From: Leptospirales bacterium | GTDB taxonomy: Bacteria > Spirochaetota > Leptospiria > Leptospirales > Leptonemataceae | NCBI GenBank assembly: GCA_019694655.1 | Contig: JAIBBN010000007.1 | Span: 62,001 to 126,000 of the forward strand | Length of the DNA stretch: 64,000 bases | Direction: 5' to 3' | The notes under the pieces: model-generated | Databases searched by the model: none | What the model saw: only the letters and a program-made list of their open reading frames with translations | Told to the model about the DNA's origin: nothing | Position numbers and translations under genes: made by a program | Shown: one piece after another, positions 30,030 to 34,151 of the stretch | Numbering within the stretch: the stretch's first letter is position 1 | How the letters are laid out: each line of letters starts with the position of its first letter

Positions 30030-31322
30030 TCAAGCGACGCTGGCCAGCGCTTCGGCCTGACGTTGAATCAGTTCACTGGACGGCGCCGGCAGCAGACCGG
30101 CATCGCCGTCCTTGAGCAATAGAGTTTGAAAAATCGCCCAGGCATGTTCGAACGCAAAGCGTTGGACGCGGCCGCGTAGAATTCCCTGGGCGATGCCAGG
30201 GAGCGCAAAGACGGGATGCAGCTGTGCGCCAATCCAGGCCTGGTTGTGCACTTCGGTGCTCATTCGCCGCGGATCGACGCTGGAGCTGAAGCTCAGCAGT
30301 ACCTGTTCCGGACGAAATCGTTCCTCTTCGAGTCTTCCCTGAAAATCAGGCGTTACGACAACGACATCTGCCGCGTTGTAAACGTGATCGAGGGATGAGG
30401 CTATCCCTGCGCCGCGCTCAAAGCGCGTCAGTTGTCTGCTATCGGCATCGATGCCGTAGACGCGAGCAGCGCCAAGGCGAAGACAAAAATCCTTCAGTCC
30501 ATGCCCGGCAGGCCCCAATCCAATAATAGCCACCGCAGCGCCTTCGATCTGACGGCCGCGCAGTCGGGCCGCATTGGACATGGCTGCTGCAAGTGCGAGC
30601 GCCATCTCGCTCTGTTCGGCATGAATGACTGGGATGGGCAATTGCTCGCCCAATCGCTCCGCCAGATCCAGCGCATACTCCGGATTGATACACGACAATC
30701 GAATGGCGCAACCATTCGTCGCAAGGGCGACGCAAGTCTTGATAAACTCTTCCTCATTGCGCGGTGCGATGCGCAGTGGCGCCGGCTGCAGGTCCGTCCA
30801 ACGCGCCAGCAGGAAAGCATCGCGCTCAAGGTGCAAGGAGGCAAGGTGCGGAGCGCGCAGCGCACCGCCCTCTGAACACAACAGAATCCTGCGTCCGGTT
30901 AACGCTTTCGTAGAATCTTCAGTGGCATAGAGCGATGACGCAGCCCGTTGCAGCGCCTCCTCGCCGGTAGTTACAAATGCTCTGCGAAAATCAATTTTCC
31001 GGGCCGCTCGGACTTCAATCAGCGGCGACCCAAATTGCTCTGGTTCCATGCGCAGGCGATAGATCGCGTCCGGCAAATCGCGCCGAATATCCTGTTCAAT
31101 CTGCTGGCGCGCATCCTCGTTGGCAAGGGCCTCGATGCGAAAGTAGTCGGCTTGCGGGTCGCTGTACAGCCGCTGGCAGGATATTATGTCAATTCCAGCA
31201 GTGGGCCACATGGAGGGGAGCGCACTGCGCGCCGGCCCCTTCCGCGGCGCTTGAAGATCGATGGTGTAAAGCGCCATGGCGCTTAGAGTATCGGCGCCGA
31301 CGGCAGTGGCGCTGAAGGTCAT
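30030..31322 (-). CDS. ACT plus malic-enzyme-like protein without catalytic residues
   Basis: 430 aa. Order resembles ACT-containing malic enzymes: an ACT-like domain (~17-95), EVRAARKIDFRRAFVTTGEEA where active enzymes have the YTPGVA motif (Tyr becomes Phe116), LERDA at 165-169 where the catalytic Lys lies, RLSCI at 208-212 and HAEQSE at 234-239 where the metal-binding EDI and HDDQHG motifs lie. The NAD-binding part is well kept: IIGLGPAGHGLKDF at 267-280, then ADVVVVTPDFQGRL, and PVFALPGIAQGIL matching the malic-enzyme LAFPGIFRGAL segment. Decarboxylation of malate is unlikely; NAD(H) and small-molecule sensing is inference. AAGG precedes ATG 31322; ATG 31277 is another option. Confidence 0.65.
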   Translation of the reverse strand: MTFSATAVGADTLSAMALYTIDLQAPRKGPARSALPSMWPTAGIDIISCQRLYSDPQADYFRIEALANEDARQQIEQDIRRDLPDAIYRLRMEPEQFGSPLIEVRAARKIDFRRAFVTTGEEALQRAASSLYATEDSTKALTGRRILLCSEGGALRAPHLASLHLERDAFLLARWTDLQPAPLRIAPRNEEEFIKTCVALATNGCAIRLSCINPEYALDLAERLGEQLPIPVIHAEQSEMALALAAAMSNAARLRGRQIEGAAVAIIGLGPAGHGLKDFCLRLGAARVYGIDADSRQLTRFERGAGIASSLDHVYNAADVVVVTPDFQGRLEEERFRPEQVLLSFSSSVDPRRMSTEVHNQAWIGAQLHPVFALPGIAQGILRGRVQRFAFEHAWAIFQTLLLKDGDAGLLPAPSSELIQRQAEALASVA

Positions 31323-31334
31323 CGACCTTACTGT

Positions 31335-31868
31335 TCACGGAATCGGAAGGCTGGTTCGATCGCTGATTTCGTAGTGGATTAGCGCGTAGAGTTGCACCGC
31401 CTGCGGCGAAAAGTCGCGGTAGGCCCGGTCTTCGTAGGACATCATCGTGTTACAGCGAAAAGAAAAGAGGAACATGCGTCGTCGGTCTTCTGAAATTCGA
31501 AATTCAAGACCATAATCCCAGACCGGAAGGCAGCGCGCCGTAAATTGCGGCTGATAGTCCCGGTTTTGCGCCATCAAGAGCTTGATATCGCGAATCAGCC
31601 CGCCGTCGCTGAGCTTACGGATGCTTTGATAGTCGCTGTAGGGGCGTAGCTCATTGACGGTTTCGGCATAGCGGTAAACATAAATGGCAGGCGCGTGCGA
31701 AACGATGGCAATTGCCTCGTTGCTGATGGGGCCAGGATTTTGCGCCTCTGATTCAACGCCGCGCTCATTGCGGGCGATAGAAGCCTCCCGATGCTGAGCT
31801 TCGCCGAGACTGCAATGCAGCAAGCCCGCAAGGCAGGCCGCCATCCAGATCGTCCGGACGCCACTCAT
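31335..31868 (-). CDS. Predicted exported lipoprotein of unknown function
   Basis: 177 aa from ATG 31868 (the frame extends to 31934). Signal peptide SGVRTIWMAACLAGLLHC with a Leu-rich lipobox. The mature protein contains PAIYVYRYAETVNELRPYSDYQSIRKLSDGG in pieces, a CLPVWDYGLEFRIS strand and a final Tyr-rich region (AVQLYALIHYEISDR), suggesting a beta-rich fold. No known family recognised. It lies between the pseudo-malic enzyme gene (12 bp downstream) and the outer-membrane barrel gene upstream, all on the minus strand. Confidence 0.6.
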   Translation of the reverse strand: MSGVRTIWMAACLAGLLHCSLGEAQHREASIARNERGVESEAQNPGPISNEAIAIVSHAPAIYVYRYAETVNELRPYSDYQSIRKLSDGGLIRDIKLLMAQNRDYQPQFTARCLPVWDYGLEFRISEDRRRMFLFSFRCNTMMSYEDRAYRDFSPQAVQLYALIHYEISDRTSLPIP

Positions 31869-31951
31869 GCTTATTGGAAGCCAGGATTCGACGGACTGTT
31901 CACGGACAGGCAACGCCGGCAAATGCGCTTTCATTGCCTGTCCGCGCTCGC

Positions 31952-33427
31952 TCAGAACATGTGCGATAGTTTTAAGGCCGTAAAGCTCTCATATTGAGAA
32001 CGACCCTGGAAGATTGTTACGATCGTAGTTTTCTTCCAGACCAGTCCGATGCCCGGACCCCAGGCCTTGTGCAGACCATGCAGATCCCATTCGCGCCAGC
32101 TCGGAGCTACTCGGCCGATGTCGTAAAAGTACATAAGCTGTATGTCCATGCCGCCAAGGAATTGGGTGCGCGCGAAATTGTAACGGCCTTCGAAGTTTCC
32201 AAGCGCCATCGTCTTATCCACAAATTGATTGGATGGGTAGCCGCGAATCCCGCTTGAGCCGCCAAGTCCTTCGGCCCCTTCGTTCGGATTCATATTATAG
32301 ATGCGGCCAGCCTCCCAGAATGGGACATCGCCAAAGGTTTGCTGGCCAATCAGCCGGTAGGCAAAGACTGCTTCGTGACCCCAGCTGTTGATGATGCTCG
32401 GCAGCACCTCAATGTATTGCCGCCAGGTATATGTAACCCGCTGGAAGCTGTAGTCGCTTCCGGTTCCATGTCCGACGCCCTCGTAGTGAAGGTCCGTAAA
32501 GATGCCTTCATTTGGATTGGGCTCTCGCTCCCTGGGCCGAGAGTCATAGGCCAGAGCAACGCGAGCTCCGTTGACGAAACGCGGCTTGTTGTCACGAACA
32601 GCATCGTAGCCGTAGGGTTGCTCTACATCGATGAGGGTCGGCGAATTGTACTCGGCCTGCCCGTCTTCTCGTCCGCCGTAGTAGGAATTGATCCGAAAAC
32701 GCTGACCCCGAAATCCTACAAACCACTTAAAGTTCGAACTGCCGAACCAGTCCTCCGCGCTCAGCTCCAGATAAGGGCGCACGCGGTCGTAGTTATAGTA
32801 CTTGTCCTGGCGTTCACGAAGAATGCGACGCCCGGGGTTGAGTGCGGTCTGATTCAAAACCGCAGCCGGCCCGCCGAAAAGAACATTTTCATTGAGGTTG
32901 ATTTCATCGCCGAGCTTGTGGTGTAAGCCGTACTCTTCCGTCAGATCGGCGCCTTGAATGATCGTCCGTTGGCGCGGCACATTGTCGCCTACCGGCGTCT
33001 CGCCGCGCCGAATCCTGCCAATGCGCTGGATGTCCTGGTAATTGCCGACGCCATAGTACTGCGCATTCAGAGTGCGCGAGTAGCCTCCGCGCAATTTTAC
33101 GCGAAAGCCAAGGTCGAAAAAGTCCACCATATCAACACTGAAGGCGTGGTCTTCGTAACCCTTGGTCGAGGCCAGGTACTGCGCCCAGATTTCCATCTGG
33201 TAAGGCTTGTAGGGTTCGCCCTGGGCATTCACATCGTAAAAGACAAAAGTGCCGCGCAGACCGTAGATGAAGCCGATGTCGTCGTTGTAGGAAGGCAGTG
33301 GCAGAGGAGTAAAGGTCCAACGCTTGGCGGGCGGCGGTTCGTTTGGCTGGGCCAACAAGGATCCGCCGCCGGCAACCAATACCAGTAGCGCGACGAAAAT
33401 TGCGAAAGAGCGAAGCCGTTGCATCAT
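31952..33427 (-). CDS. Omp85/BamA-like outer membrane beta-barrel (surface antigen family)
   Basis: 491 aa. A signal peptide (AIFVALLVLVAGGGSLLAQ) precedes a barrel rich in alternating aromatic strands (YYNYDRVRPYLELSAEDWF, RVTYTWRQYIEVLP). GLGGSSGIRGYPSNQFVDK contains the RGYP form of the loop-6 (V/I)RG(F/Y) motif of Omp85 barrels, followed by the final strands, ending in Phe as outer-membrane proteins do. No POTRA domains precede the barrel, so it resembles the POTRA-less surface antigen (D15-like) group rather than BamA itself. Start ATG 33427 overlaps the stop of the upstream lipoprotein gene, suggesting the two act together at the outer membrane. Confidence 0.85.
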   Translation of the reverse strand: MMQRLRSFAIFVALLVLVAGGGSLLAQPNEPPPAKRWTFTPLPLPSYNDDIGFIYGLRGTFVFYDVNAQGEPYKPYQMEIWAQYLASTKGYEDHAFSVDMVDFFDLGFRVKLRGGYSRTLNAQYYGVGNYQDIQRIGRIRRGETPVGDNVPRQRTIIQGADLTEEYGLHHKLGDEINLNENVLFGGPAAVLNQTALNPGRRILRERQDKYYNYDRVRPYLELSAEDWFGSSNFKWFVGFRGQRFRINSYYGGREDGQAEYNSPTLIDVEQPYGYDAVRDNKPRFVNGARVALAYDSRPREREPNPNEGIFTDLHYEGVGHGTGSDYSFQRVTYTWRQYIEVLPSIINSWGHEAVFAYRLIGQQTFGDVPFWEAGRIYNMNPNEGAEGLGGSSGIRGYPSNQFVDKTMALGNFEGRYNFARTQFLGGMDIQLMYFYDIGRVAPSWREWDLHGLHKAWGPGIGLVWKKTTIVTIFQGRSQYESFTALKLSHMF

Positions 33428-34023
33428 AGCGATTTCCCCGCGGCAAAATTGATGGTTACGCGCGAGGTTCCGGTTCCGCTGCCGGCCACGTCGAGATCAT
33501 AGGAGCCTACCAATTGATTTGGCTGCATCTCCGCTCGAAAGCGAGACAGCGCGGCTGTTTGCGAGGGATCGGAAAGGGTCACCGTAGCACTTTGCGTTAG
33601 CGTCAGGATCGGCTGCTGGTCTTCAACGCCAGGCGTGACCGAGCCGCGCACTGGAAAAGAAATCGAAGTGATCGTAGCGTTGCGCAAGGGGGCAACTGTA
33701 TTGAACACACCCTGTATCTGGTTGCCGACAACGTAGACGTTTACGTTCACATTGGGGTCGACATTGGCATTGATGATTGCCTGCAATCCCGGATATGTAA
33801 CAGCGCAGTAGGTCAGGGCGTCGGCCGTATCGCCAACGCAGGTCTGCATCTGCGCCTGGCCGTTGAAGACGTTGCCGCTGAGGAATTGCACCCCGGCGCC
33901 GAACAGGAAAGAATAGATGATGTCCTGCTGGGAGGCTTCCCGTTCCCCCGGATCTTCGTCGCCAGCGCTGCAGGCCGACAACGAAAGCAGTACCATTGAA
34001 ACAACAGGTAGTAGCTTTCGCAT
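33424..34023 (-). CDS. Predicted lipoprotein coupled to the Omp85-like barrel
   Basis: 199 aa from ATG 34023; a longer frame to 34086 would spoil the signal peptide. MRKLLPVVSMVLLSLSAC is a clear lipoprotein signal with Cys18, followed by an acidic SAGDEDPGERE stretch. The mature part has one Cys pair (QTCVGDTADALTYC) and beta-rich repeats (NVNVNVYVVGNQIQG, ATITSISFPVRGSV). Its stop overlaps the start of the barrel gene (ATGA). Association with the barrel is inferred from coupling. No family recognised. Confidence 0.75.
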   Translation of the reverse strand: MRKLLPVVSMVLLSLSACSAGDEDPGEREASQQDIIYSFLFGAGVQFLSGNVFNGQAQMQTCVGDTADALTYCAVTYPGLQAIINANVDPNVNVNVYVVGNQIQGVFNTVAPLRNATITSISFPVRGSVTPGVEDQQPILTLTQSATVTLSDPSQTAALSRFRAEMQPNQLVGSYDLDVAGSGTGTSRVTINFAAGKSL

Positions 34024-34151
34024 AGCGCGCAAAGATCGAAGACTCAAAGGGTCAGGGTCAATCCTTTTTCCCGATTGCACTTGCACGGGGCGACTTGCCT
34101 TCTAACAAGGTCGGTTTGCAGCGCACTAGAATAACCGTCAATAGTAGAGCG

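Follow-up and report, generated by a model that had tools for sequence, protein, structure and literature searches.

A malic-enzyme-fold protein with replaced catalytic residues and its relatives across Spirochaetota

What does a protein with the architecture of a malic enzyme do once the residues of malic-enzyme chemistry have been replaced? The question is raised by an open reading frame in a 64,000-nucleotide stretch of DNA from a Leptospirales bacterium (the window), which an earlier note, made from the sequence alone, had read as a malic-enzyme-like protein with every chemistry residue lost and the cofactor site retained. The frame is intact at positions 30030-31322, as described there, and we add that it lies on the minus strand, running from 31322 to 30030 over 430 codons (430 aa). 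On the basis of the open frame, a phmmer search of the PDB, its orthologues, a tree and its fold, the product, P0001, is assigned here as an ACT-malic-enzyme-fold protein of an apparently rewired, ERD-type malic-enzyme family. Because all eight orthologues (8/8) begin at the residue aligned with Met16, translation of P0001 probably starts at Met16, window position 31277.

Among solved structures, the nearest to P0001 are malic enzymes, both by phmmer (best E 2.2e-14, residues 157-293) and with a profile of the nine orthologues (6e-25). A structure model of P0001, built from 4 sequences (mean pLDDT 68.8, pTM 0.67), matches malic enzymes over almost its whole length (Foldseek E 5.9e-15) and superposes on malic enzyme 5cee with a Z of 29.9 and an rmsd of 4.0 over 320 aligned residues. 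The phmmer search, the orthologue profile and the model together bear out the malic-enzyme homology and the domain order that had been claimed, and the superposition that had been suggested as a check finds the malic fold. The N-terminal part (about residues 16-100; 31023-31277, minus strand) runs strand-helix-strand-strand-helix-strand in the full model, the order of ACT domains; modelled in isolation, it matches 2nyi, the GcvR-like 1u8s and the ACT domain 3ibw at Z 8.9-10.3, with ties to NikR and ribosomal S6. In addition, the profile of the close orthologues aligns with ACT-carrying malic enzymes, the N-terminus included (hhalign, 380 columns, E 8e-34), and this alignment and the strand order support the ACT-like N-terminus. 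An unrelated Rossmann protein, closer to some other NAD-binding family, was considered and rejected, since malic enzymes rank first by sequence and by structure.

Family models do not name the protein. The HMM check against PF00390, PF03949 and ACT was negative for P0001 in Pfam up to E 10, for the two malic models as for ACT, and the homology comes from phmmer and the structure model instead. The Pfam matches of P0001 are generic Rossmann ones, all sub-threshold, and those in NCBIfam are sub-threshold as well. None of 11 further members scanned in Pfam up to E 1 reaches a malic cut-off (0/11), with P0005 at 12.3 bits and L065 at 11.5 bits against a cut-off of 23.5, and NCBIfam gives no match over cut-off for P0001 and seven other members. 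That P0001 has no named family, as supposed, holds over the cut-offs of both collections. Because no malic name is given by Pfam to the 12 members scanned, and none over cut-off by NCBIfam to P0001 and the seven others, the family is probably carried in databases as hypothetical proteins; the titles and abstract openings of open-licence papers yielded nothing on such a protein.

To define the replacements, residues were counted in 31 canonical malic enzymes and in 49 full-length family members (9 close orthologues and 40 from the wide set); L113, a member cut by a contig end, was left out of these counts and of the tree. In malic enzyme we take the Tyr of YTPG and the Lys of MEGK to be catalytic, the Glu and Asp of NLED and the Asp of HDD to be metal ligands, and the NN before FPG to be the malate-binding Asn pair. 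In P0001 neither catalytic element (the Lys or the Tyr motif) survives, the Asn pair has disappeared along with the first and second metal carboxylates, and the LERDA, RLSCI and HAEQSE segments stand, as had been noticed, for MEGKA, NLEDI and HDDQHG. At residues 166-168 (30819-30827, minus strand), Glu-Arg-Asp replaces the Glu-Gly-Lys of MEGK in 9/9 close orthologues. The Lys has become Asp in 48 of 49 members (close 9/9, wide 39/40) against Lys in 31/31 canonical enzymes, a count that is partly a matter of choice, the canonical rows having mostly been labelled by their MEGK string (the other columns are unaffected); the preceding Gly has become Arg in 9/9 close and 32/40 wide members, and the Glu is kept in 49/49.

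By the same counts, Arg-Leu-Ser at residues 208-210 (30693-30701, minus strand) replaces Asn/Lys-Leu-Glu, with loss of the first metal ligand. Two positions ahead of the NLED Glu, 47 of 49 members (9 close, 38 wide) have Arg, where the 31 canonical enzymes have Asn (22), Lys (7) or Gln (2); the Glu itself is Ser in 9/9 close orthologues and mixed in the wide set, where Glu falls outside the seven commonest letters (35 of the 40 rows shown). At residues 234-239 (30606-30623, minus strand), HAEQSE replaces HDDQHG and brings a new invariant acid at residue 239: the Gly of this motif, present in 31/31 canonical enzymes, is an acid in 49/49 members (Glu in 9/9 close, Glu or Asp in 40/40 wide). The second Asp of HDDQHG, the third metal site, is still an acid in 9/9 close and 24/40 wide members. 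Tyr is absent from the aligned YTPG column in 9/9 close and 40/40 wide rows, so that its loss stands; its proposed replacement, Phe116, does not align with the Tyr, the aligned residue being Thr119 or Gly120 depending on the alignment. The Asn pair (NN in 31/31 canonical enzymes) has, in the close orthologues, His in 8/9 or Asn in 1/9 at the first position and Pro in 9/9 at the second. Glu302 is present in 49/49 members and not conserved in canonical enzymes, and Gly306, Ala308 and Ser/Thr309 are near-fixed in the family.

The survey of orthologues that had been proposed thus finds the same substitutions in 47-49 of 49 sequences, because of which the pattern is, on these alignments, far beyond chance. 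The family has almost certainly lost the malic-enzyme reaction, although 'every' chemistry residue was too strong a word, given the MEGK Glu in 49/49 and the third-site acid in 9/9 and 24/40. Because residues 168, 208 and 239 stand, by sequence position, for active-site residues or their neighbours, a pocket rebuilt from them is likely.

How far does this pattern extend? Within the window's order, matches came from 23 of 30 genomes; a full-length member occurs in nine of them, P0001's included, all within the window's family (22 genomes searched), and the eight orthologues are 29-43% identical to P0001. All other matches in the order are canonical malic enzymes except one, and the window's genome itself has a separate canonical malic enzyme on another contig (G000:C22). 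Across 392 Spirochaetota genomes that were searched and their frames read, there are at least 50 such genes, a lower bound in that matches were cut at 1e-20 and 60 of the matches listed outside the window's family were sorted, so that some carriers may be missed; at least 41 of these genes, including one truncated at a contig end, lie in other families of the phylum. A tree built on 81 proteins places the 9 close and 40 wide members together on one side of a branch supported at 100/99, apart from the 31 canonical enzymes, and the near-fixed charged residues of the 49 sequences span eight families of the phylum.

The exception in the order (L031:799-1989, minus strand, genome G008) is a second, separately degenerate malic enzyme, with LEST, LLQG and HLEQSC at the places of MEGK, NLED and HDDQHG. 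It has no close relative among the 22 family genomes, its best other match being a canonical enzyme of about 31% identity, and no malic enzyme encoded in G008 scores above the PF00390 cut-off.

The loss of most catalytic residues might suggest that P0001 is merely a decaying malic-enzyme copy, but frames are intact in all nine orthologues, the replacements are fixed, and NG86 dN/dS is 0.065-0.106 in six close pairs of the wide set (undefined in the other three of nine pairs), a range that shows purifying selection in these pairs. Conservation of this kind refutes decay, which we reject and give practically no weight. In the window's own family, NG86 dS was undefined in both pairs tried, and one YN00 value was 0.022 at a dS of 1.9. 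Because the replacements are near-fixed and dN/dS is 0.07-0.11, the group is, judged from its sequences, a rewired family and not a decaying one. Another possibility is that the protein sits as a dead subunit in a mixed oligomer with canonical malic enzyme, in a regulatory or structural role, and the presence of the canonical enzyme in the window's genome and in most close relatives would agree with this. Of the 50 carrier genomes, however, 18 score above the PF00390 cut-off and 20 show a match to this model at E 0.01, leaving 30 without a match at that level; the 32 good-quality carriers divide into 15 with a match and 17 with none. Because 30 of 50 carriers lack a PF00390 match, the family is no obligate partner of canonical malic enzyme, and for the family as a whole the partnership, weakened in this way, is improbable.

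The cofactor site bears on two further explanations. P0001 has an NAD(P) loop of the GxGxxG form (GLGPAG, residues 268-273; 30504-30521, minus strand), kept in this protein and not in the wider family, and both the GLGPAGHG segment and the FALPGI end are present as described. The first Gly of the Rossmann loop is kept in 49/49 members, the second in 6/9 close orthologues and 0/40 wide members, and Asp292, after the second Rossmann strand, in 48/49 (9 close, 39 wide). At least 3/9 close orthologues therefore have a broken glycine loop and 40/40 wide members have lost it, so that NAD binding cannot be a shared function, and the retained cofactor site, from which the earlier note had argued for an NAD(H)/organic-acid sensor, does not carry that proposal. 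A narrower version, in which NAD(H) binding was retained in the window's family only, would draw on GLGPAG and Asp292 in P0001 and on the second Gly in those 6/9 orthologues; we consider its chances slim.

The main rival of the regulatory reading that we prefer is a new enzyme, with the malic fold re-tooled around Asp168, Arg208, Glu239 and Glu302 as working residues. Charged residues near-fixed in 49 sequences from eight families, the low dN/dS and the Asp292 kept in 48/49 all speak for it, whereas the loss of the glycine loop in 40/40 wide members makes a family-wide NAD redox reaction unlikely, and the close and wide neighbourhoods share no constant metabolic gene. On balance we regard a new enzyme as a serious but tentative possibility, at odds clearly below even.

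Gene neighbourhoods point towards the cell envelope. P0001 is the last of four same-strand genes, all on the minus strand, which begin with a lipoprotein-like gene (33424-34086, from its open frame and neighbourhood) and continue with an Omp85-superfamily outer-membrane protein (31952-33427; PF01103 at 26.7 bits, cut-off 24; 6/9 loci) and, directly upstream of P0001, a 199-aa protein with a lipoprotein-like start (31335-31934), a homologue of which lies near the orthologue in 7/9 loci. A glycerophosphodiesterase-like gene, identified by reading its sequence, is found in 7/9 orthologue loci, and 5/9 have a CsgG/LpoB-like gene that includes DUF4384. The latter proteins, possibly envelope assembly factors, adjoin the orthologues at L036:7608-8537 and at equivalent places in L033, L037, L038 and L039; the gene is absent from the equivalent place in the window.

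In the wide set, a block of PBP1A, CarD and PIN/TRAM genes, named by Pfam with PIN and TRAM just below their cut-offs, precedes the family gene in the same orientation in 34 of the 39 loci open to inspection (11/13 with long flanks; 23/26 upstream stretches); the loci without it are L061, L069, L125 (contig end), L139 and L140 (short upstream stretch). Of the 34 block loci, 23 have an FMN-reductase gene in between. Just past the wide gene, on the opposite strand, a cache-like exported protein, its cache match below cut-off, was seen in 10 of 13 long-flank loci (L054, L055, L056, L058, L059, L060, L063, L065, L066 and L069). In the window's family, CarD and PIN/TRAM are located elsewhere, and one close orthologue (genome G010) has a class A PBP gene next to it. 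That the family was linked ancestrally to a single PBP1A is not supported, as this adjacent PBP is not orthologous to that of the block: it scores 136-246 bits against the block's PBP1A, and another G010 PBP scores 520-612. The genomes G000, G001, G004, G007, G009, G010 and G011 each have four to seven transglycosylase-domain (PF00912) genes, a seemingly high number.

Our data are best explained, at a probability of about 0.5, by a family whose malic chemistry is gone and whose members serve as cytosolic regulators of cell-envelope functions that bind a small ligand, anionic or amino-acid-like in character. Under this model, the family is related to malic enzymes with an N-terminal ACT-like domain, and its former metal/malate site would have been rebuilt on a fixed charge set (Asp168, Arg208 and Glu239 together with Asp292 and Glu302). 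The rebuilt site may bind the anionic or amino-acid-like ligand, and the protein, presumably non-catalytic, would regulate envelope functions from the cytosol with envelope machinery as its target. An envelope role is in line with the lipoprotein-like and Omp85 neighbours that the window's family has and with the PBP1A-CarD-PIN/TRAM block of 34/39 wide loci. A new enzyme would, however, also be expected to show charged residues that are almost invariant at what was once an active site, and the structure model comes from 4 sequences at a mean pLDDT of 68.8. The envelope link itself is tempered by the housekeeping type of CarD and PIN/TRAM, whose block may be a mere operon of convenience, and by the different neighbours of the close and wide groups, the G010 PBP being no orthologue of the block's PBP1A.

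A bolder form of this regulatory reading leans on the PBP1A/CarD block in most families and on the Omp85/lipoprotein gene run in the window's family: a phylum-level metabolite sensor, in which a former malic enzyme serves as a cytosolic, ligand-gated switch through which the synthesis of peptidoglycan and envelope responds to the state of amino-acid or central-carbon metabolism. We offer it as speculation that is rather unlikely to hold in full. The wider interest lies in a single, seemingly fixed rewiring of the site of a central-metabolism enzyme, seen across much of one phylum, and the steady place behind PBP1A, CarD and PIN/TRAM gives a testable lead to a possible tie between metabolism and cell-wall growth in spirochetes.

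Among known systems, the closest in layout are the ACT-domain malic enzymes of Spirochaetota (L053 and its relatives), which likewise run from ACT through the malic N-domain to the NAD domain; L053 has PF00390, PF03949 and ACT_4 all over their cut-offs. These enzymes keep the Tyr, the Lys, the Glu/Asp/Asp and the Asn pair, whereas the P0001 family is without them. The malic enzymes 5cee (Phytoplasma), 1vl6/2hae (Thermotoga TM0542) and 6zn7 (MaeB) share the fold of the P0001 model (Z 29-30 over 306-322 residues) at about 20% identity, with the catalytic set replaced in P0001. A generic Rossmann likeness links residues 249-324 of P0001 to PF02826, the NAD domain of D-2-hydroxyacid dehydrogenases, at 23.5 bits against a cut-off of 25.1, which P0001 does not reach and its orthologue P0002 does (26.1); unlike a D-2-hydroxyacid dehydrogenase, P0001 has an N-terminal half of the malic type.
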